A stretch of DNA of 64,000 bases, taken from the NCBI GenBank assembly GCA_029866215.1, contig JARWZU010000005.1, positions 1 to 64,000 of the forward strand, given 5' to 3'. Source of the DNA: Akkermansiaceae bacterium. GTDB taxonomy: Bacteria; Verrucomicrobiota; Verrucomicrobiia; Verrucomicrobiales; Akkermansiaceae. This document shows, piece by piece, positions 13,176 through 22,377 of the stretch; the first letter of the stretch is position 1; every line of letters begins with the position of its first letter. Below the pieces are notes generated by a model. The model was given only the letters and a program-made list of their open reading frames with translations, made no database searches and was not told the DNA's origin. A program made the translations under genes and the position numbers.

Positions 13176-15599
13176 TCACTCAGGGACCGCGAGGCATACT
13201 TCGGCACAAACCGGCAGGTGGTCAGATGCCATAACCGCCGTGAGGGTGTCAGGCCGATCGACCGCTTCAACTCTGAAGTGACGGCTTACAAAAATATGGT
13301 CAATTCTCATCATCGGCCTAACAGATGAAAACGTTGCGCGAGGCTTTTGCCCAACCGCCACCTGCTGTACATCGACCAGTCGCTGACTCAATCGCTTGAA
13401 TACTTTGGAGCGAGGCCCTGAGTTGAAGTCACCACAAAGAATGACTGGCTCGTCTTCAGGAATCCCCCCTAACCATTTGCTTCCTAACAGATGTTCAACT
13501 TGCAAGCGTTTCTCTCGCCGCCCAAGCCCGAAGTGAGTGTTGATAAAATTCAGTGGCAAGCAGCCATCCATTTCGACCCGCACCCAGATCGCCCCACGCG
13601 CCTCTCGGAGAATCATGGGCTTCGCCCCAGTCAGGTGATCAGCCTTCACCACCTTCAACGGGTACTTTGAGAAAATCGCAATCCCATAGCGCTCGTGCTC
13701 CTCTTCGAAAACCGCGTGAAAGACATGATCCATGCGAAGGTGATCGGCAATCACTTGAGACTGGTCAAGCATACCACTTCGCACACGGTGAACGTCGAGT
13801 TCCTGTACCGCGATAATGTCAGGATCAAATTGATTCATCACCCTTGCAATCCTCTCTGGACGGATTTTCCCATCAATTCCACGACAACTGTGAATGTTGT
13901 AGGTCATCACCCGAAATGTTAGATTCTCATTACGGACTGGGTGCTCAGGCACGCGCTCATCTGGCTTACCGTCCCGGCCGAGAAAGTGCCGCGCGACATC
14001 GCGCAAGTCAACACCTCTCACCCTCAGCCGCGTCACTGGAAGGTGCGCCATGTGCCAACGATAAATCCGGTCTGGAATCAGCAAAAACCCTTCTGTCTCG
14101 CGCCGTCCGGGACCACCATGTCCACCACTTTCCATCGCAAAACTGACAGGGGCCGATCGTGGGTTCCAACCGCTTATCACAAAGTCTCCTGCATCAGGGT
14201 GCCGACACAGCGCACCAAGATCCTCCGACGCTTCGTCCGGAAACGGATGATCATTTCCAATCACCTCTTTGGAATCAGAACGCAAGTCCCAAACGCCCTG
14301 AGCGTTGTAGGCTTGCACCTTGCCATCACGTTTGGTGGTTAGCACTAGGGGAATTTTAGCAATTTTTACGAGAGCTTTGGCATAGCTATCCATCTCTTTT
14401 CCCGTTAACTCATCAGGCAAATACAAGTGGCCCACGGGCCCCATGGCCGTGAGGACAATCTGACTCGTTGGGTCGGGTGCCGCCATATGGTCTCGGCATT
14501 TCGCCTTCATCCCAAGATATTGTCGGCAGGAATCAATCGACCTCGTGACAAGCTCAGAAATGCGACTCTCCCACAATTCCCGATGTTCAAGCGGACCACG
14601 CCCAAAAACTTCCTTTACCGCATCAGCGACCGTCCGCCCATGGAGAACTCCAAATGCCGTGGTGCTCTCCTGCCCATGATCTGAATAGACGATCCATTCG
14701 TAATCTCGACGATTCGACCGCTCGGCCACGCGGCAGATGTCGCGCACTGCCCGATCAATACCCTTCAACGTCCAATGGGCAAAGATCGAGCTTGGTCCCC
14801 GCCGGTGCGCTTGTTCATCGTAGCCCAAGAAATTGGCATGGATGACCTGTACACCCGTCTCCACATCAAACATTACGCGAAAACGAACGAGCTCTCGCAG
14901 CACGATACTAAAAAAGACCCGTGCGGGAATGAATGCCAATTCGTGATAGAGTTTGCCCTGCTCATAAATTCCTTTCATCGCATCAAAAATAGCGAGTAAG
15001 CATTCTAGTAGGAACAGAGCAACTACTCTACCGATCCGTGGCGCATAAATAAACACAAGCAGTACCCATTTCAATGGGTGCTGACGTCGAAGCACTTCAC
15101 GAAGCGCAGTATCCTGCGAACAATACCGTGACTCATCTGCACCCGCGCGATAGATGTCCAAATACGCATGTCCACCTCGTAGCAATGGTTCCACGCATTT
15201 CTTTTCAAGCTCTGACTGAATGCTAGCCGCCGCAGTCGATTCATACATCCTGAAAACTTTTCCTGACTTACGATTGAGAAATTCAAAAGCTGGTACCGCC
15301 GTCCGCACGCCAAAAAAAATCTCCCCCTGAACCGCTGGAGTGGTCGATGGCACTCCTGAATAAAAGCTCTCCAAGGTGAAATGCTTGCGTCGAATTAGAC
15401 GAGCGAGAAATGGCAACCTTCCCTCATCAATCGCCCGATTGAATTCCTCTCTCGAAAGGCCGTCTATCTGGATCATGATCAATCCCGGCTCATCGCCTAC
15501 CATTGCGGGTTGCCTGATCCCAAGAATCCGCGCAGTCCAACCGGTCCGGCTAGTTTCTCGCCGAATCCATCTTACTAGAGTTCCGATGCTGCTAATCAA
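13176..15599 (-). CDS. fusion of an alkaline-phosphatase-superfamily domain and an EEP phosphodiesterase
   Basis: An 807-residue two-enzyme protein. The first part (about 35-530) has metal-site motifs of the type I phosphodiesterase/alkaline phosphatase superfamily: IMIQIDGLS, a likely nucleophile in PSTTPAVQ, LGYDEQAHRRGP and YSDHGQE. Hydrophobic segments at about 175-205 and 225-240 lie inside it and suggest membrane insertion. The last part (about 560-805) is an endonuclease/exonuclease/phosphatase (EEP) domain with an intact catalytic set: MTYNIHS, AVQELD, FINTHFG, CGDFNS, RIDHIF and SDHLPV. Start is TTG at 15599, overlapping the upstream stop by 8 bp; ATG at 15503 is an alternative. Phospholipid, sphingolipid or phosphoglycan cleavage is plausible; substrates are unknown. 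Confidence 0.9.
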   Translation of the reverse strand: MISSIGTLVRWIRRETSRTGWTARILGIRQPAMVGDEPGLIMIQIDGLSREEFNRAIDEGRLPFLARLIRRKHFTLESFYSGVPSTTPAVQGEIFFGVRTAVPAFEFLNRKSGKVFRMYESTAAASIQSELEKKCVEPLLRGGHAYLDIYRAGADESRYCSQDTALREVLRRQHPLKWVLLVFIYAPRIGRVVALFLLECLLAIFDAMKGIYEQGKLYHELAFIPARVFFSIVLRELVRFRVMFDVETGVQVIHANFLGYDEQAHRRGPSSIFAHWTLKGIDRAVRDICRVAERSNRRDYEWIVYSDHGQESTTAFGVLHGRTVADAVKEVFGRGPLEHRELWESRISELVTRSIDSCRQYLGMKAKCRDHMAAPDPTSQIVLTAMGPVGHLYLPDELTGKEMDSYAKALVKIAKIPLVLTTKRDGKVQAYNAQGVWDLRSDSKEVIGNDHPFPDEASEDLGALCRHPDAGDFVISGWNPRSAPVSFAMESGGHGGPGRRETEGFLLIPDRIYRWHMAHLPVTRLRVRGVDLRDVARHFLGRDGKPDERVPEHPVRNENLTFRVMTYNIHSCRGIDGKIRPERIARVMNQFDPDIIAVQELDVHRVRSGMLDQSQVIADHLRMDHVFHAVFEEEHERYGIAIFSKYPLKVVKADHLTGAKPMILREARGAIWVRVEMDGCLPLNFINTHFGLGRREKRLQVEHLLGSKWLGGIPEDEPVILCGDFNSGPRSKVFKRLSQRLVDVQQVAVGQKPRATFSSVRPMMRIDHIFVSRHFRVEAVDRPDTLTAVMASDHLPVCAEVCLAVPE

Positions 15600-16878
15600 G
15601 GTGGGCTTTGGTTGCTTGGGTTTCGACCACCGCGGCCGCTCCCGCCGAGAGCTTTTCGACGAATAGATCCCACTCGATCTCGATTCCCGATAGCAGGCGA
15701 TCCCATGCTGTTAGATTTAACTTCCTCTTTCGCCCATCATGAGCGATGAGTTTTTCATAGCACTCAATGACGCACTGCACACAGGTCTCGGCGCCATATT
15801 CTACAGCTGTTTCCTTAGATTTTTGTTTGAAGTACTTTAACAATTCAGAATTTCGAATCAGAGCACCAATCACCAAGGCGAATTCATCGGCGGTAGCTTT
15901 GCCATTGAGAAGTAAGCCGTTTTCATCATGCCTGACAATCTCCCGCACCCCAGGGCCGTCGAGTGCCACTACGGGAATACCAGCCGCCATTGCCTCTGCC
16001 AACACGAGCCCTTGCGTCTCTGTTTGTGATGCAAACACAAAGCAATCCATTGCCGCATAGGCATCCGCCAAATCTTGGCCGGTGAGCTTTCCCACCGCAT
16101 GGATCTGACCGTCCGGTGCCTTCTGCCTGAGGATGTCCATCATGTCTCTGTGATGTTCACCATCACCCACTACTAGGAAAACCGTGGATGGATCATCGTG
16201 CAAGGCCGTGGCGACCGCGTCCGCGAGAAACAAGACGTTCTTCTCCTTCGCAAGGCGGCCGACATGGCCAATTACCATCGCCTGTTGGGGAATGTTGATC
16301 GCCTGCCGAAATCGCAGTGAATCGCCATTTGCGAAAAAATCAATATCCACCCCAGTCGGTATCACCTCAATGGGGGCCACAACCCCACGCTCCCTCAGCA
16401 ACCTCGCAATGCTGCCACTCGGCGCAATGACTTGGTCACAGAGGTTGCAGTATTCGGTGCCTAACTGGATCACGACACGCTTCAGCGCAGTTGAGTCAAG
16501 CGGCACATAGTGCGTGTAACGCTCGTAGAGCGTGTGATTGGTGAAAATGATAGGCACTTGCATTTTCCATGCCTCCCGCAACGCCGCATCTCCTAGTAGG
16601 AATGGATGGTGACTGTGAATCACGTCCGGCTTAAAATCTTCGATGAACTCACGGATCAGGTTGGGCACAGGGATCCGCATGGAAAAGTCGCTACCATTGA
16701 AATTTTGGACTGCTGGCACTCGCAACACATCGGGTGCCGATTTCTGTTCCAAGAAGTTCGGCGCGATGACCTTCACTTCGTGACCAGCCATGCGGCAAGC
16801 ATCCTCTAATGTCTTAACGGATCTCGCCACCCCCCCGACGTGCGGGAGGTAGGTATTCGTGAACATGGCGATTTTCAT
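15592..16878 (-). CDS. GT4-family glycosyltransferase
   Basis: Retaining GT-B glycosyltransferase of 428 residues. Visible features are the N-terminal glycine loop in LPHVGGVARSVKTL, the HSHHPFLLG acceptor-side block, the nucleotide-sugar region GRLAKEKN, and the E-x7-E motif in TETQGLVLAEAMAAG. The closest general resemblance is to lipid glucosyl- and mannosyltransferases (diacylglycerol glucosyltransferase, PimB types), but sugar and acceptor cannot be read from sequence. Its ATG overlaps the upstream stop by 4 bp (ATGA), and its stop overlaps the next start by 8 bp, so the three genes are translationally coupled. Confidence 0.93.
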   Translation of the reverse strand: MKIAMFTNTYLPHVGGVARSVKTLEDACRMAGHEVKVIAPNFLEQKSAPDVLRVPAVQNFNGSDFSMRIPVPNLIREFIEDFKPDVIHSHHPFLLGDAALREAWKMQVPIIFTNHTLYERYTHYVPLDSTALKRVVIQLGTEYCNLCDQVIAPSGSIARLLRERGVVAPIEVIPTGVDIDFFANGDSLRFRQAINIPQQAMVIGHVGRLAKEKNVLFLADAVATALHDDPSTVFLVVGDGEHHRDMMDILRQKAPDGQIHAVGKLTGQDLADAYAAMDCFVFASQTETQGLVLAEAMAAGIPVVALDGPGVREIVRHDENGLLLNGKATADEFALVIGALIRNSELLKYFKQKSKETAVEYGAETCVQCVIECYEKLIAHDGRKRKLNLTAWDRLLSGIEIEWDLFVEKLSAGAAAVVETQATKAHLD

Positions 16879-19160
16879 ATTTTTTTAAGTGGAAAAACAC
16901 GTTCTAATAAATTGCTGGATTGCTTTTCGAAGCCAGGCACCGAAATCGTAACGCGCGGAGGGTCACCTCGCCAATGAGCGTCCAGATGCAAGCAGGCTTG
17001 GTCGATGCGGATACTAACTGGCCCCCATGCGGTCTGGGTCGGGCCGAAGCGAATCTCCTCACCACCCGCCAACCACTCCGACAAAATCCCAGATCCGATG
17101 ATGAGCGATTCAGCCTCCTCTCTGACGAAACAATTTCGAATCATCATGATCCATTCACCCGCTGCCCATCCATGTTGCCCATCGCCCATGCACCCTCCGA
17201 AGGTCTGCGGATGGATCGCTTCTGGCCATTGACCGGTTGGCGATGCGAGCTCAGCCACTCGGCGGATCAGTTCTCCAAAACGAGGATCGCCTTTGCGCAA
17301 CAGAGATTGAGCGAGGTCGAGTGTCAGATAGGCGTTGATTCCCGAGTGGATCATCTCTTGGAAGAACCCACCCCGCTGAAAGCAATGTCCGATGAGGAAA
17401 TCTGCAGTTGTTAGCATTCTTTCGTCACCTGGGGGGTAAAGCTGCAGCGGGTAGTCTGCCACCATCGATCCGATTGCACCTGCATCCATCCGCCTTCCAG
17501 GTGCTGCAGGTACTGCGCCATTGCTCTGAGTCGATGGGATCGCAGTGACACAAGATTCAATACTGATAGAGAATTCTTCCGCCAGTATGTCGGCTTCCGA
17601 GGCTGCATCATCGTCGCCAATGCTACGCCAGTAGCTTGCGATGTTTCGTAGCCCGCCCAGTGCCCAAAAGTTGTCCCAAAAGTAGAAATCATTCGGCCCG
17701 AGATGTTCCGCGCTGAATCCAGCTGGCAATAGGCCACTCGCATGACTGCGTTTGTTGCGGAGCCAACGAACTCCCTTGCGGATCGCCTGTTCGACTTCTT
17801 TGCCAAGTCGTGTCCCAGTCATGCTGGCATAACGTGCCGCGATCCAAAGCACCTGTCCGTTAGAATCCCACTCACCTTCTTGTGATAGAAAGTATCCTGA
17901 CAGCGTCTGGCGATTTGGGAAACTTTCGATGACTCGCTTTGACCGATCGATGAGTCCGATGGCAATCATCGGATGAAGCATGAGGCACGCATCTCTGAAC
18001 CAAAACCGCCGGTAAGTGTACGGCCCCGGTACCAAATCCCCAGCCGATAGAAGAATCATCGTTCGTACAGCTGCGTCATAGAGAAACTGCATTCGAGCAT
18101 CCGATATCGAAAGCTCCGCAGTACCTCGCGTCGCGTCGGACCATGAGTGGTTGATAGGTTGCCGCAACGGCACATCCTTGAGGTCACGATCCAAGTTCAC
18201 CGAAACTTGAATTTGACGAGGCTCCCCTTCTCGGAGTCGAAACAACGCCGCCGCAGTGGCCATTCCAACTGGGCAATGCACTTCTTGCGGGTGATCATCC
18301 CGCTGAAGGTCGAGATAGACATCCCCGTCCGCATAGTGCGCCATCTGAAGCGAATCCGGCGGATCGCTAAATCTAACCGATGCTTCTTCGTTCACATGAA
18401 ATGCTTGCTCATTTGCGTCGAAGACGATTTGGTCTACAAACTGAACGCCCTCAGGATTGTAGGGTCTAACAGCAACCACCAACCATGCATCGGCATCCGC
18501 CAAAGCACCTACGGCCACGCAAAGGTTGGCAGTCCCGAAATTGGTCGCACCCATGGTCACGTCTGTGCGAAGTTCCAGACCACCGTGGACGCAATCGGTG
18601 ATGATTTTGAGTGTTGGATCGAGTTGGAGAGTCTGGCGCACCGCATCATCACCGAGTTTACTCGGCAAGAGACTCCGTCCATTTTCGGTTAGGATCCAGA
18701 AATCAAGCGACCAGCCATCGTTTAGCGGTGTGACCAAGCCCCGGGGATCCACGATCGGGTACACCGGCAAGTCCGGGAGCCCCACAGCGGTCCAATTTCG
18801 ATGGGTGAGGTTGATGTGGCTGAAGGAAAATGCCCGCGGGATAAATGATGAATCGGTGGGATTGAACTGCCGTTCGACCCAGTAGGGCCAAACCCAGTCG
18901 AGGTTGTGTTGGATCGCCTTGGCATTTACCAGGCCTCTCGCGTGAAAGATGATGCCCGCGCGAAGAAGCTCAAGGGGCTCTGCCACTTCGGACGGTTGGG
19001 CAAAGCGGCGGATCCGCGCGAGCCACGTCGCAGGATCGATCACCCCGTAGCGCCGTGCCGCGTATCTAACGAAAAATTTCCATGGCAGCAATCGGATCAT
19101 GAAATGCGAATTAGGGGGTGGAACGGTGGGGGCAATCTCCGCTAAGGAAATGCAATCCAT
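16875..19160 (-). CDS. six-hairpin glycosidase-like protein (amylo-alpha-1,6-glucosidase / GH15-like)
   Basis: A 761-residue protein with an N-terminal beta-sandwich-like half (about 50-370) and a C-terminal (alpha/alpha)6 barrel (about 375-700). The barrel shows blocks common to GH15 and debranching-type enzymes: YRRFWFRDACLMLHPMIAIG, NDFYFWDNFWALGGL and GQHGWAAGEW, which carry acidic and aromatic residues expected at an active site. No signal peptide was seen, so it probably acts in the cytoplasm. It is the first gene of a coupled operon with a GT4 glycosyltransferase and a double phosphoesterase, which suggests it trims or remodels the glycan they handle. The exact activity is unknown. Confidence 0.8.
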   Translation of the reverse strand: MDCISLAEIAPTVPPPNSHFMIRLLPWKFFVRYAARRYGVIDPATWLARIRRFAQPSEVAEPLELLRAGIIFHARGLVNAKAIQHNLDWVWPYWVERQFNPTDSSFIPRAFSFSHINLTHRNWTAVGLPDLPVYPIVDPRGLVTPLNDGWSLDFWILTENGRSLLPSKLGDDAVRQTLQLDPTLKIITDCVHGGLELRTDVTMGATNFGTANLCVAVGALADADAWLVVAVRPYNPEGVQFVDQIVFDANEQAFHVNEEASVRFSDPPDSLQMAHYADGDVYLDLQRDDHPQEVHCPVGMATAAALFRLREGEPRQIQVSVNLDRDLKDVPLRQPINHSWSDATRGTAELSISDARMQFLYDAAVRTMILLSAGDLVPGPYTYRRFWFRDACLMLHPMIAIGLIDRSKRVIESFPNRQTLSGYFLSQEGEWDSNGQVLWIAARYASMTGTRLGKEVEQAIRKGVRWLRNKRSHASGLLPAGFSAEHLGPNDFYFWDNFWALGGLRNIASYWRSIGDDDAASEADILAEEFSISIESCVTAIPSTQSNGAVPAAPGRRMDAGAIGSMVADYPLQLYPPGDERMLTTADFLIGHCFQRGGFFQEMIHSGINAYLTLDLAQSLLRKGDPRFGELIRRVAELASPTGQWPEAIHPQTFGGCMGDGQHGWAAGEWIMMIRNCFVREEAESLIIGSGILSEWLAGGEEIRFGPTQTAWGPVSIRIDQACLHLDAHWRGDPPRVTISVPGFEKQSSNLLERVFPLKKI

Positions 19161-19344: not shown

Positions 19345-22300
19345 TCAACGCCGCCGCCGCACCAATAATAACAGACCAAGACCACTCAGAATCAGAGCGC
19401 TAGGCTCAGGAACCACCGTCATGGTCACAAAGTAATTTGCCCCACTTTGGTCTGCCGAATAGTTGGTGCCACCTACAGTATCGTTGTAATTAAACATCCA
19501 CTGATTTGCGCCCACCGTGATGATGGAATCATCGTTGATACTAGTACTATTACTTGAAAATGTGAATCTCCCATTGTTCCAAGAGTCTCTGTAAGAAATC
19601 AAGGTGAGCTTATTATCATTTACTAAGGTGCCGGCCGCAAGCTCAGAGAGACTTAGCGCGACAAGACCATCCGCAATACTCAGTCCAGCGGATGAAAATG
19701 CAAGGTCGCCAGAAAGGTTCGTGGAATTGAGCTCATATTTGTAGGTAGAACCCGAGAGAAATGTCAGGCTTCCCATCCCCAGCGACTCGATCGAGTTGCC
19801 TGGTGCCAGTGATCCGGTGACATTGACACCGCCAGAAATCGACCCAGAACCGCCGAGGGTCGCATTAGAACTCACGGCGATCGCGCCGCCTAATATGCCA
19901 TTCACGGCGAATGAGTAATCACTGCTGATGGTTGTGTCACCTGATACACTGATGTTCGATGTTGCGGCGAGCTCATTGATACCAGCGATGGTTAGGTTCC
20001 TCGCAAGCGTGAGTGTGCTACTTGCGCTTCCAATCTTGGAGGTGCCCGACAACGTGACATTTCCGCCGACGATCCCGGAGCCGCCGAGGGTGGCGCTGGA
20101 GCTTACGCTGACCGCACCGTTTGAAGCGGTGTTGTTCCCATTCAAGAGGACGGTTCCTGAGCCGCCAAATGAGGTGTTGCCTTGGTAGTTGTTGTCACCG
20201 TTTAGGGTCAGGGTGCCTGCGCCAGACTTGTCTAGGGTCCGGGATTGGCCACTGCTGTTGAAGATGGCACCGTTGACGGTGGTGTTTCCTGAACCAGAAA
20301 ACGTCAAACCGTTGCTCGCGCTGCTTGAGCTGATGTCAATAGTGCCCCCGAACACGATGCTGAGATTGTTATCGCTGTTGGTGATGGAGCGACCCCCTGA
20401 CGAGGCTGACGATACAATACTATTATTGATGAAATTTAGGGTAGTAGCATTACCGCTGCTGGCGGTGAACTTAAGGTTCGCCCCAAGGTTTGAGCTATTA
20501 CCATAAGCGCCTAAAGTATAGTTCCCTGCGGTAGCCAAGTCGATGGTACCTGTATTCGCACTGGCTGAAGAGCCACTGACTACGGTGGCATTTCCCAGTG
20601 CATTGACATTGGTCAGTTTAAGTACTGGGCCATTCGCGCCTGCGAGCGAAAATAGTCCATTGAAGCTATTTCCAGACGTGATTGCCAAGGTTCCATCTGA
20701 GATAATGGTGCCGCCTGTGTGGTTAGACGAACCGCTGAGCACCAATGTTCCGTTGCCCATTTTCGTGAGCACCCTAGCAGAACCTGACTCAGTGATGTTG
20801 CCGCTGAGGGTGATATTTCCGGCTCCAATCGAGGAGCTGGCTGCCAATGACACACTACCGCTCAAGCTGGCATTTGATCCGCTGGTGTTGACCAAGCCAC
20901 CAAGAGAGCTGATTCCAGTACCACTGAGCGAAATTGCTTCGTTCCCGATGGTCTGACCAAACAAATCCAAGACCCCGCCGCTGGACACGGTGGTTCCGTT
21001 GTTGGTGCCTCCAAGCGCATTGGCATGATCCAGCTTGATTGTTGAACCTGAAGAAATCGTCGTAAGGCCGGTGTAGGTATTGTTGCCCGATAGCGTTACA
21101 ATCCCCGTGCCTTGAGTGGTTAGACCATGGTCGAAAGCCGTTCCGTTAGTTATCGCGCCCGCGACGTTGATGTTGGCAGAACCAGCAAGCTTGAGCACCT
21201 GAGCCGCAGTCGAGTTATTGGAGAGGTTCATGCCCCCGATTGTAAGGATATTGCCAGTTCCGTTGACGGTCAGGGTCCGGCCCGAGCCAGTATTGGTGTT
21301 ATCCAATCTTCCGATCGTGAGCGTTGTCCCGTTCCCCGCCAACGTAATCAAGCGGTTGGTTGACGCCGTCACAACACCTGTGCCGAGATTGAGGTTGTTG
21401 TTGCTGGTACTCGCTGCTGTGCCAAAGGTTAGTCCATCAGTCCAAGTCCATGCTCGATTCCCCGCATTGGTCACAGCTGCACCGCTTGTGTTGTTGAAAG
21501 TAGAATTTGCACTGATCGTGAATGCACCAGAGCCCAGTGCATTGGCGTGGTTGATATTGAGGGTACCTGCCGTAAGGGTGACGCCTCCTCCCGCTCCGGA
21601 ATTGTTGCCGCTGAGGGTCAAGATGCCGCCCGCCGCATTCATCGTGGTGAGGCCGCCATAAGTATTATTGCCTGAAAACAAGGTATTTCCGGTTGAGGTC
21701 ACGGTGACTGCACCCGCCGTTGAGCTCCCTCCGTTTGCGATCGTGCTCGCAACCGTGATATTCCCCGCCCCCCCAAAAACGACCGTCCGGTTAGTGCCAG
21801 ATGATGACAGATTAACTCCGCCATTGAACACCAGAGCTCCACCGGTTATCGAGCTCACCAAGCCGTTGCCGTTCGTGTTTTGAACCCCGAGACTGAAGGT
21901 CTGCGTGGCAGTGGAGTTATTGATGATCCCAATCGTGGAGGTAACGGTGCTGTTCCCGTTGCCCATCACTTCAAGGCGCACACCAGGGCCGCCGCTAAAG
22001 GTGTAGTCTATCGCGCTGGCGGCAAACTGGAGGGAGTTCACCGTCCGGTTAGACGTGATATTGGGGGTTCTGTAGGTGCTATTTCCGAGGTTCGAGAAAA
22101 TGGCGACGTCCGTATTGCCGCTGCTGGAGCTCAGCTGTGGACCCGATAGAGGAGTCCATGAGGCGTTCGTGGTCCAAGCGTTGGAAGTCCCAGCCCACGT
22201 GTAGTCCACTGCCCATGCGCTGGGCGAAATCACGATGGCGGCAAGTGCCATGAGTGCGCGGTACAGAACTCCGAGCTTCAAAAACAAAAAACCACGCGAA

Positions 22301-22377
22301 GACAAAATTCCCTGATTTTGGCTTTGAGAAAAATAATGCAATTTGGCGGCATGAGCCGGCGCCTCTTGGTTTTTCAT
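19345..22377 (-). CDS. PEP-CTERM protein with autotransporter-associated beta-strand repeats
   Basis: A 1010-residue exported protein, very rich in Gly, Asn, Ser and Thr. It starts with an extended signal region ending MALAAIVISPSAWA, runs through many autotransporter-associated beta-strand repeats (units such as GTGIVTLSGNNTYTGLTTIS and GAGTLTLNGDNNYQGNTS), then a SLAPGNS-type turn typical of the end of such passengers. The C-terminus is a PEP-CTERM sorting signal: VPEPSALI, a hydrophobic stretch, then RRRR. So it is probably handled by an exosortase rather than by a fused beta-barrel. It is an adhesin-like or surface-matrix candidate. No exosortase gene is in the window. Confidence 0.92.
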   Translation of the reverse strand: MKNQEAPAHAAKLHYFSQSQNQGILSSRGFLFLKLGVLYRALMALAAIVISPSAWAVDYTWAGTSNAWTTNASWTPLSGPQLSSSSGNTDVAIFSNLGNSTYRTPNITSNRTVNSLQFAASAIDYTFSGGPGVRLEVMGNGNSTVTSTIGIINNSTATQTFSLGVQNTNGNGLVSSITGGALVFNGGVNLSSSGTNRTVVFGGAGNITVASTIANGGSSTAGAVTVTSTGNTLFSGNNTYGGLTTMNAAGGILTLSGNNSGAGGGVTLTAGTLNINHANALGSGAFTISANSTFNNTSGAAVTNAGNRAWTWTDGLTFGTAASTSNNNLNLGTGVVTASTNRLITLAGNGTTLTIGRLDNTNTGSGRTLTVNGTGNILTIGGMNLSNNSTAAQVLKLAGSANINVAGAITNGTAFDHGLTTQGTGIVTLSGNNTYTGLTTISSGSTIKLDHANALGGTNNGTTVSSGGVLDLFGQTIGNEAISLSGTGISSLGGLVNTSGSNASLSGSVSLAASSSIGAGNITLSGNITESGSARVLTKMGNGTLVLSGSSNHTGGTIISDGTLAITSGNSFNGLFSLAGANGPVLKLTNVNALGNATVVSGSSASANTGTIDLATAGNYTLGAYGNSSNLGANLKFTASSGNATTLNFINNSIVSSASSGGRSITNSDNNLSIVFGGTIDISSSSASNGLTFSGSGNTTVNGAIFNSSGQSRTLDKSGAGTLTLNGDNNYQGNTSFGGSGTVLLNGNNTASNGAVSVSSSATLGGSGIVGGNVTLSGTSKIGSASSTLTLARNLTIAGINELAATSNISVSGDTTISSDYSFAVNGILGGAIAVSSNATLGGSGSISGGVNVTGSLAPGNSIESLGMGSLTFLSGSTYKYELNSTNLSGDLAFSSAGLSIADGLVALSLSELAAGTLVNDNKLTLISYRDSWNNGRFTFSSNSTSINDDSIITVGANQWMFNYNDTVGGTNYSADQSGANYFVTMTVVPEPSALILSGLGLLLLVRRRR

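Follow-up and report, generated by a model that had tools for sequence, protein, structure and literature searches.

A conserved three-gene operon of a glycosidase-fold protein, a GT4 glycosyltransferase and a double phosphoesterase, probably for making and editing sugar-bearing membrane lipids

Background

PlcP is a metallophosphoesterase. Together with the glycosyltransferase Agt it serves in a remodelling of membranes under phosphate starvation in which phospholipid is replaced by glycolipid (PMC4796936). A second comparable system is gpgSDF of Pseudomonas aeruginosa, to which hexSDF of C. difficile is called analogous (PMC12713373). There one operon encodes a GT4 synthase, an editing enzyme (a deacetylase) and a predicted flippase of the YbhN type, and the enzymes are cytoplasmic, without transmembrane helices. 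In Escherichia coli, ybhP overlaps clsB, which in turn abuts ybhN, so that an enzyme of the endonuclease/exonuclease/phosphatase (EEP) superfamily has genes of membrane-lipid function and a predicted membrane flippase as its neighbors.

The operon described here lies in a 64,000-nucleotide stretch of contig JARWZU010000005.1 from an Akkermansiaceae bacterium, which we call the window. The likeness to PlcP-Agt lies in a glycosyltransferase beside a phosphoesterase, found in the window and at 40 of 70 judgeable loci among the best 80 of 224. In contrast to PlcP-Agt, two other phosphoesterase folds are fused, with no PlcP-family (metallophosphoesterase) domain in a Pfam scan; a glycosidase is added, as is a VTT protein in many relatives; and Pho boxes of the E. 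coli type show no enrichment. With gpgSDF it shares a GT4 synthase, an editing enzyme and, in relatives, a predicted flippase in one operon, and enzymes that are likewise predicted to be cytoplasmic. The editor is a glycosidase-fold protein rather than a deacetylase, however, the flippase candidate is of the VTT rather than the YbhN type, and the double phosphoesterase is extra. A YbhP-like EEP enzyme is common to this operon and the E. coli cluster, although the latter lacks a GT4 enzyme and a glycosidase and its YbhP is a stand-alone protein. We found no description of the gene set in the open-access literature.

Organization and conservation of the operon

The open frames on the minus strand (Table 1) confirm the original prediction of three genes with overlaps of 4 and 8 bp. 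The 8-bp overlap is kept in the relatives, being TTGATTAG in 10 of the 11 examined and GTGATTAG in one. Equal and linked production had also been predicted; translational coupling is a safe inference from this arrangement, but equality is not, because the phosphoesterase gene starts with TTG.

Table 1. Features of the operon, by position in the window
Feature	Position	Strand	Remarks
Glycosidase-fold (GH) gene	16875-19160	minus	open frame, 761 aa, operon gene 1
GH N-terminal helical region	18867..19091	minus	residues 24-98, DPxxxLARLRRFAQPSEV...NLDWVWPYW, highly conserved
GH beta-sandwich domain	18126..18812	minus	residues 117-345, predicted fold
GH (alpha/alpha)6 barrel	17106..18110	minus	residues 351-685, predicted fold
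GH Glu485	17706..17708	minus	candidate general acid, invariant 44/44
GH Glu647	17220..17222	minus	candidate general base, GQWPEAIHP motif, invariant 44/44
GH stop/GT4 start overlap	16875..16878	minus	4 bp, ATGA
GT4 gene	15592-16878	minus	open frame, 428 aa
GT4 stop/phosphoesterase TTG start overlap	15592..15599	minus	8 bp, TTGATTAG
Double phosphoesterase gene	13176-15599	minus	open frame, 807 aa
Alkaline-phosphatase-superfamily (type I phosphodiesterase/NPP) half	13965..15491	minus	residues 37-545
Hydrophobic helical hairpin	14856..15044	minus	residues 186-248, inserted in phosphodiesterase half
EEP half	13182..13925	minus	residues 559-806, YbhP-like

Relatives were compared at 80 loci, the best of 224 by GH similarity. 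GH is 63-92% identical in 13 loci of close relatives (L007-L019), while the remaining 67 show 47-56%. The expected or proposed catalytic residues are invariant in the alignments of GH (A1, 44 rows, leaving out L086, which has a stop codon inside its stretch), phosphoesterase (A2, 25 rows) and GT4 (A3, 54 rows). Given this identity and these invariant residues, we regard the three frames as real genes. No hydrophobic N-terminal segment was found in the 44 GH, 25 phosphoesterase or 54 GT4 rows. Because the A1 rows start at the match and not at the start codon, this test was repeated after extending the locus rows to upstream start codons, again with no such segment found.

The carriers among these 80 loci belong to the Verrucomicrobiota, Desulfobacterota, Gammaproteobacteria, Planctomycetes and other groups, by names taken from record titles, many of them of metagenome-assembled genomes. 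Contig ends truncate some of the loci. The GT4 gene adjoins GH in 70 of 78 judgeable loci and is absent in 5; the phosphoesterase gene adjoins GT4 in 40 of 70 and is absent in 29. These counts were made by tblastn, since neighbor clustering had merged GT4 and phosphoesterase, probably via a frame spanning both at L059, and had left GH unclustered in four loci; the matches to GT4 and phosphoesterase at L047 and L081 are broken yet were counted as adjacent. The genes thus stay together in relatives, as the original prediction required. Ten genomes were searched whole, of which five (G418-G422) contain a full-length phosphoesterase and one (G417) has the halves apart. The remaining four (G413-G416) yielded none anywhere, which means that the phosphodiesterase need not accompany the other genes. 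In one of these, Marinobacter pelagius (G415), the best GT4 match is a metallophosphoesterase-GT4 fusion (330 bits, versus 595-645 in the others).

Domains were scanned in selected genes out of 100 same-strand neighboring open reading frames, and PRC-barrel genes occur near some loci. A role in anti-phage defense was rejected, there being no PADLOC match at E 1e-5.

The glycosidase-fold protein

GH was predicted to be an (alpha/alpha)6 enzyme, which is right by fold, although no Pfam or NCBIfam family matched at E 0.1 and neither a single-sequence nor a profile search gave a credible match to the sequences of solved structures. Structure comparison revealed a GH15-like layout, with an N-terminal beta-sandwich followed by the (alpha/alpha)6 barrel. 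Over residues 351..679 GH aligned with 5z3a, named "Glycosidase" (Z 30.5, rmsd 2.6 A, 311 residues). Further matches were with dextran dextrinase 9ju0 (Z 31.7, 4.3 A, 532 residues), bacterial glucoamylase 1lf6 (Z 29.1, 3.1 A, 525 residues), GH65 enzyme 7fe3 (Z 29.0) and GH125 (Z about 27); we take 5z3a and 9ju0 to be GH15 members. The top matches were GH94 enzymes by Foldseek and GH15-type enzymes by the second structure aligner, and we did not adopt a reading as a GH94 phosphorylase on this divided result, which sequence did not decide. Nor do we claim GH15 membership, since there is no Pfam (PF00723) match and an hhalign comparison of the GH family with two PF00723 proteins was not significant (P 0.026 and 0.038). 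GH therefore has its fold in common with GH15, GH65, GH125 and GH94 enzymes but differs in matching no Pfam or NCBIfam model and in its extra conserved N-terminal helical region.

Glu485 and Glu647 are candidates for the acid/base pair, Glu485 on account of its loop position. The N-terminal helical region, in which residues 49-91 have low pLDDT, may be a membrane-surface or partner-binding module.

The glycosyltransferase

The second protein has the fold domains PF13439 and PF00534, and E287 and E295 of the EX7E motif, the motif of retaining GT4 enzymes, are invariant in all 54 members; it thus has both the domains and the motif of a retaining GT4. Its top NCBIfam model is alMGS (alpha-monoglucosyldiacylglycerol synthase, NF049988), with 167 bits, far below the cut-off of 400. 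All 54 members match that model, and its E-value is the best among the 25 families listed. The second model for the window protein is GlcNAc-PG synthase, and there are also scores against EPS/LPS-type models. At the level of sequence, then, the enzyme resembles those with lipid acceptors, within a superfamily that is promiscuous. A role in sucrose or glycogen synthesis was rejected on far lower scores (43 bits for sucr_P_syn); grouping with sucrose synthesis had been named beforehand as evidence against the lipid idea.

The double phosphoesterase

The description of the third protein as a double phosphoesterase proved correct, with PF01663 and PF03372 on one chain; the only other Pfam match is PF23226. 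In the phosphodiesterase half D46, T87, D261, H265, D307, H308 and H494 are invariant (25/25), and we take these to be the threonine nucleophile and six metal ligands that mark a type I phosphodiesterase/NPP (PF01663). In 22 of the 25 sequences the 19-residue Kyte-Doolittle mean reaches 1.6 or more within residues 170-252, and the helical hairpin is likely to make contact with the membrane.

In the EEP half, N568, E600, H689, D724, N726, D793 and H794 are invariant (25/25). Of the two E. coli EEP proteins compared, YbhP is nearer (94 bits) than XthA/exonuclease III (24 bits). The top NCBIfam model is exonuclease III, at 47.8 bits well under its cut-off of 99, and the PGAP2IP nuclease-like model is passed at 31.5 bits (cut-off 27); PGAP2IP is a GPI-lipid family. 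Human neutral sphingomyelinase (Z 24.9, 2.8 A over 235 residues), ENPP6 (Z 23.4, 2.9 A over 329 residues) and ENPP7 (Z 23.1, 3.2 A over 339 residues) are among the fold relatives. For the EEP fold, the best matches of solved structure are a mannosyl-6-phosphatase (Z 26.4) and uncharacterized proteins; nucleases account for many of the matches. Given these matches and the promiscuity of the EEP superfamily, a sugar-phosphate or nucleotide substrate for this half is possible.

Stand-alone EEP cousins adjoin a ClsB-like PLD gene in three of three loci (L109-L111), a line of evidence that is weakened by the convergent orientation of the genes and by their origin in a single genus (g9). At L120 a stand-alone cousin lies directly 3' of a PLD-VTT fusion. 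Two more distant EEP genes (L112 and L113) have no ClsB-like neighbor.

The VTT/DedA partner

In 36 of the 80 loci a gene for a YdjX-like VTT/DedA membrane protein lies no more than 1.2 kb from the block. With HMMs built from neighbors in these same loci there were 37 matches in the 80 loci (1.10 Mb), the one farther off being about 2.1 kb away (L068). Subfamily c3 (14 loci) is always just 5' of GH, and subfamily c2 (22 loci) is downstream in 19 and just 5' of GH in three (L031, L038, L043). No VTT gene is adjacent to the operon in the window, and none was found in 23 of the 52 loci with full flanks. The PF09335 cut-off was passed by three of eight VTT proteins scanned (2/2 of c3, 1/6 of c2). 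Among the five E. coli DedA proteins tested, both subfamilies are closest to YdjX/YdjZ and not to YqjA/DedA; YdjX/YdjZ are COG0398 proteins. According to a published analysis, members of COG0398 lack residues that go with the transport of undecaprenyl phosphate, are unlikely to be flippases for it and may scramble phospholipids; they are also linked there to aerobic metabolism (PMC10127716). The many sulfate reducers among our carriers are at odds with that last link.

A glycosyltransferase, a phosphatase and a glycosidase form the classic gene set of compatible-solute pathways, and the operon could accordingly be soluble in its chemistry, GT4 making a glycoside phosphate (such as glycosyl-glycerol phosphate), the phosphoesterase dephosphorylating it and GH recycling the solute. 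To judge by record titles, many carriers come from marine, haloalkaline or sediment habitats, PRC-barrel genes lie close to some loci, and the EEP fold is near that of mannosyl-6-phosphatase. We nevertheless judge this unlikely: it leaves aside the recurrent VTT partner of lipid-scramblase type, the hydrophobic hairpin, the lipid-type models that come top for GT4 and the YbhP-likeness of the EEP half, and two phosphoesterase folds on one chain would be surplus.

A slightly slimmer chance is given to a lipid-linked envelope glycan pathway, in which the sugar handled by GT4 and GH would be linked to undecaprenyl, with the phosphoesterases serving to recycle this carrier. Undecaprenyl phosphate flippases do exist among VTT/DedA proteins (PMC10127716), and the EPS/LPS-type scores of GT4 would fit. 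The YdjX/YdjZ affinity of the VTT partners and the missing transport residues of COG0398 argue against it; moreover, in our reading of the neighbor clusters that recur, with a selection of neighbors scanned, neither a polymerase nor an initiating transferase was seen.

Phosphate and regulation

The proposed phosphate-starvation trigger is unsupported. Sites resembling PhoB boxes reached an empirical p<0.05 upstream of GH in 0 of 72 regions (3.6 expected) and upstream of the operon in 2 of 68 (3.4 expected). The scan used the E. coli PhoB consensus, with random stretches from these loci as the background, and may miss divergent boxes in other phyla. Control through E. coli-type Pho boxes was accordingly set aside. 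A sensor kinase pair lies between operon genes in three of 16 fetched Verrucomicrobiota loci, and control by environmental sensing rather than by phosphate is more likely. A lipid swap of the PlcP-Agt type under phosphate starvation, as originally predicted, has like chemistry in its phosphoesterase and GT4 enzyme, but the background level of E. coli-type Pho boxes makes it improbable, as do phosphoesterases unrelated in fold to PlcP, the extra glycosidase and scramblase-type partner, and a phosphoesterase gene that is often missing.

Co-occurrence of the genes

Among 387 genomes of the phylum, including that of the window, GH occurs with a full phosphoesterase in 14, GH alone in four and the phosphoesterase alone in two (Fisher p 2e-20). 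For GH the 18 matches above 1000 bits were counted, the next being at 157 bits, with 71 genomes giving any match at E 0.001; a phosphoesterase was counted as full if its match exceeded 860 bits or, as in G045, came in two pieces within one frame. Distance matrices correlate for GH and GT4 (r 0.81, 38 loci), GH and phosphoesterase (r 0.93, 18 loci) and phosphoesterase and GT4 (r 0.82, 24 loci), values matched by 0 of 2000 permutations and to which shared species history contributes. Although the phosphoesterase and GT4 are missing at some loci, adjacency conserved over several phyla, these correlations and this co-occurrence make it very improbable that the enzymes are merely co-located without joint function.

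A proposed pathway

The conserved gene set is probably a pathway for making and editing sugar-bearing membrane lipids. Its core is GH and GT4, with the phosphoesterase and the VTT protein as frequent, optional members. The part of the original prediction that finds support is the link to membrane lipids, which is drawn from the VTT partner, the YbhP-like domain, the hydrophobic hairpin and the lack of signal peptides; the phosphate trigger finds none.

On balance, with odds a little better than even, we infer that the operon makes and edits a glycolipid with alpha-linked sugar on the cytoplasmic side of the inner membrane. The double phosphoesterase would dock on the membrane through its hairpin and take a phospholipid or a phosphorylated lipid as its substrate. 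One half would work as a diesterase of the ENPP/PLC kind and the other as an esterase resembling YbhP or sphingomyelinase, and diacylglycerol or some equivalent acceptor would be set free. GT4 would add an alpha-linked sugar to the freed lipid, as alMGS or GpgS do, and the GH15/GH125-like glycosidase would trim or remove such sugars, thereby setting the length of the head group or reversing the step. Where present, the VTT protein would equilibrate the lipid across the bilayer. The acceptor could instead be PG, PE or a polyprenyl lipid. We advance only tentatively the wider proposal of a widespread system in which a new intracellular glycosidase family, acting on membrane glycolipids, is balanced against a GT4 synthase. 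In it the acceptor would be drawn from phospholipid by the phosphoesterase, and the product moved to the outer leaflet by a COG0398 scramblase.

Conclusions

If the proposed glycolipid pathway is correct, Verrucomicrobiota, sulfate reducers and marine gammaproteobacteria would have in common a route of lipid remodelling that is apparently not tied to phosphate. A glycosidase-fold family that has no Pfam or NCBIfam model would gain a function, there would be a testable substrate for YbhP-like enzymes and for the DedA proteins of COG0398, and the genes would serve as markers for sediment and water glycolipids whose origin is uncertain. On the wider proposal, the COG0398 scramblase family would also acquire a defined bacterial substrate pathway.

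Gene arrangement and translational coupling

The genes for the glycosidase-fold protein (GH), the GT4 glycosyltransferase and the double phosphoesterase were confirmed as open frames. GH and GT4 overlap by ATGA, and GT4 and the phosphoesterase by TTGATTAG, with the TTG start codon of the phosphoesterase within the 3' end of the GT4 gene. Ten of 11 relatives share the second overlap, the eleventh having GTGATTAG, so translational coupling is conserved. The original prediction expected linked and equal production; the linkage stands, whereas the rare start codon argues for a phosphoesterase output that is probably lower than that of its partners. The 1010-aa protein encoded directly upstream of the operon reads as autotransporter-like with a PEP-CTERM-like tail, and a related gene occupies the corresponding position in two other loci (L007 and L008).

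Open frames of the operon and its neighbors in the window
Feature	Position	Strand	Status
GH	16875-19160	minus	open frame confirmed
GT4	15592-16878	minus	open frame confirmed
Double phosphoesterase	13176-15599	minus	open frame confirmed
Large repeat-rich protein, upstream	19345-22377	minus (same strand)	label read from sequence
Helicase-like gene, downstream		opposite strand	label read from sequence

Conservation of the gene set

Our locus sample was the best 80 of 224 relatives from a GH search, which by record title include Verrucomicrobiota, Desulfobacterota, Gammaproteobacteria, Planctomycetes, Omnitrophota, Nitrospirota and others. The adjacency on which the original prediction hinged recurs in these best 80: GT4 lies directly 3' of GH in 70 of 78 judgeable loci (elsewhere in 3, absent from 5; not determinable in 2), and the phosphoesterase directly follows GT4 in 40 of 70 (elsewhere in 1, absent from 29; not determinable in 10). 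Whole-genome searches of 10 named genomes found the full phosphoesterase in five, its halves apart in one and none in four. The window's phylum was surveyed in 387 genomes, that of the window among them: a full-length GH is present in 18, the full double phosphoesterase in 16 and both in 14 (Fisher p 2e-20). In the class of Desulfofustis (L061), 21 of 144 genomes have a match, which in 19 is full-length and unbroken. The three proteins also show correlated evolutionary distances (r 0.81 to 0.93), in part because they share a species history.

A search of the whole Marinobacter pelagius genome (G415) found neither a close GT4 nor a full phosphoesterase. GH and an adjacent VTT (YdjX-like) membrane protein are present there, and a protein combining a weak calcineurin-like metallophosphoesterase match with a GT4 (L119:5106-7364) could therefore act as a substitute. 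On one Verrucomicrobiota contig, an acyltransferase/AMP-binding/carrier-protein multidomain protein adjoins GH-GT4 (L095:4014-6644).

GH and GT4

GH has no family match in Pfam or NCBIfam. Its predicted model (pLDDT 84.8) comprises a beta-sandwich and an (alpha/alpha)6 barrel. Its nearest neighbors by structural alignment are GH15-type enzymes, followed closely by GH65, GH78, GH125 and others; GH94 leads the Foldseek ranking. Glu 485 and Glu 647, invariant in 44 of 44 sequences, are candidates for the acid and base, the underlying sequence alignment being not significant. A 1024-aa distant relative of GH with an F5/8 C domain, on contig C22 of the window's genome (L103:2297-5371), adjoins GH94 and MGH1/GH63-like genes, possibly as a polysaccharide-degradation cluster.

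The GT4 protein matches PF13439 and PF00534. Its best NCBIfam model is alpha-monoglucosyldiacylglycerol synthase (167 bits, below the cut-off of 400), followed by N-acetylglucosaminyl phosphatidylglycerol synthase (121 bits). All 54 aligned GT4 members match the former, which has the best E-value among the 25 families listed. Sucrose synthesis, an assignment that had been named as counting against a lipid role, does not emerge, the sucrose-phosphate synthase model scoring 43 bits against 167. A strongly hydrophobic stretch in the first 70 residues was found in none of 44 GH, 25 phosphoesterase and 54 GT4 rows, nor in locus rows lengthened to upstream start codons (43, 24 and 53), so all three proteins are probably cytoplasmic.

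The double phosphoesterase

Pfam places two domains, type I phosphodiesterase and EEP, in the single 807-aa chain; among NCBIfam models exonuclease III ranks first, at 47.8 bits (cut-off 99). Sixteen candidate catalytic residues across the two halves are invariant in 25 sequences. In the predicted model (pLDDT 85.0) the first half aligns structurally to NPP/ENPP enzymes and the second to EEP enzymes, among them human neutral sphingomyelinase, a mannosyl-6-phosphatase and nucleases. A likely membrane contact is a pair of helices inserted at residues 186-248, which is strongly hydrophobic in 22 of 25 sequences.

By similarity and gene context, the EEP half points toward phospholipids. The corresponding profile scores 94 bits against YbhP and 24 against exonuclease III, and E. 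coli ybhP belongs to the run ybhP-clsB-ybhN. The nearest stand-alone EEP genes in the phylum survey (L109, L110 and L111, all from one genus) each adjoin a convergent ClsB-like PLD gene, with a Pfam check made for L110; no ClsB-like PLD gene was among the neighbors of two more distant EEP genes (L112 and L113). In a Desulfatitalea genome (G417), a PLD-like domain is fused to a VTT domain (L120:4579-6711), and a stand-alone EEP frame with one stop lies just downstream on the same strand.

The two halves can be separate proteins: in another Desulfatitalea locus (L027, 5439-6986, minus strand) a 550-aa phosphodiesterase half lies near GH-GT4 without the EEP half. Elsewhere a single 1242-aa open frame spans GT4 and the double phosphoesterase (L059:3905-7618), a possible natural fusion.

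A membrane protein partner

A VTT protein lies beside the block in 36 of the best 80 of 224 loci, and in 29 of the 52 with full flanks; one further HMM hit, of 37, is about 2.1 kb away (L068). Subfamily c3 (14 loci) is always just upstream of GH. Subfamily c2 (22 loci) is downstream in 19 and just upstream of GH in 3, with the adjacent gene on the opposite strand in L057, L068 and L081. Of eight proteins scanned, 2 of 2 c3 and 1 of 6 c2 passed the Pfam cut-off. The window's genome has four VTT matches, all on contigs other than that of the operon.

When five E. coli DedA proteins were compared, YdjX/YdjZ, which are COG0398 proteins, gave the best scores for both subfamilies. For COG0398 proteins, an undecaprenyl-phosphate flippase role is considered unlikely and phospholipid scrambling possible (PMC10127716). 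The same source associates them with aerobic metabolism, a poor fit to the sulfate reducers among the carriers.

Control and proposed function

The lipid swap under phosphate starvation that was originally proposed gained no support from the suggested search for a Pho box, as Pho-box-like sites of the E. coli type are not enriched. In 3 of 16 fetched Verrucomicrobiota loci (L087, L088 and L089), GH is separated from the GT4-phosphoesterase pair by two kinase genes, one for a CHASE3 hybrid histidine kinase and the other for a receiver-kinase, an arrangement that suggests environmental sensing.

The most likely reading of the set, which we hold with slightly better than even confidence, is a glycolipid synthesis-and-editing module; its rivals are a solute pathway, a glycan-carrier pathway and a response to phosphate starvation. 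Its logic resembles that of the gpgSDF and hexSDF operons, which combine a GT4 enzyme, an editing enzyme and a flippase (PMC12713373), and of the PlcP-Agt pair (PMC4796936), but the present set draws its editing enzyme, its phosphoesterases and its membrane partner from other families.
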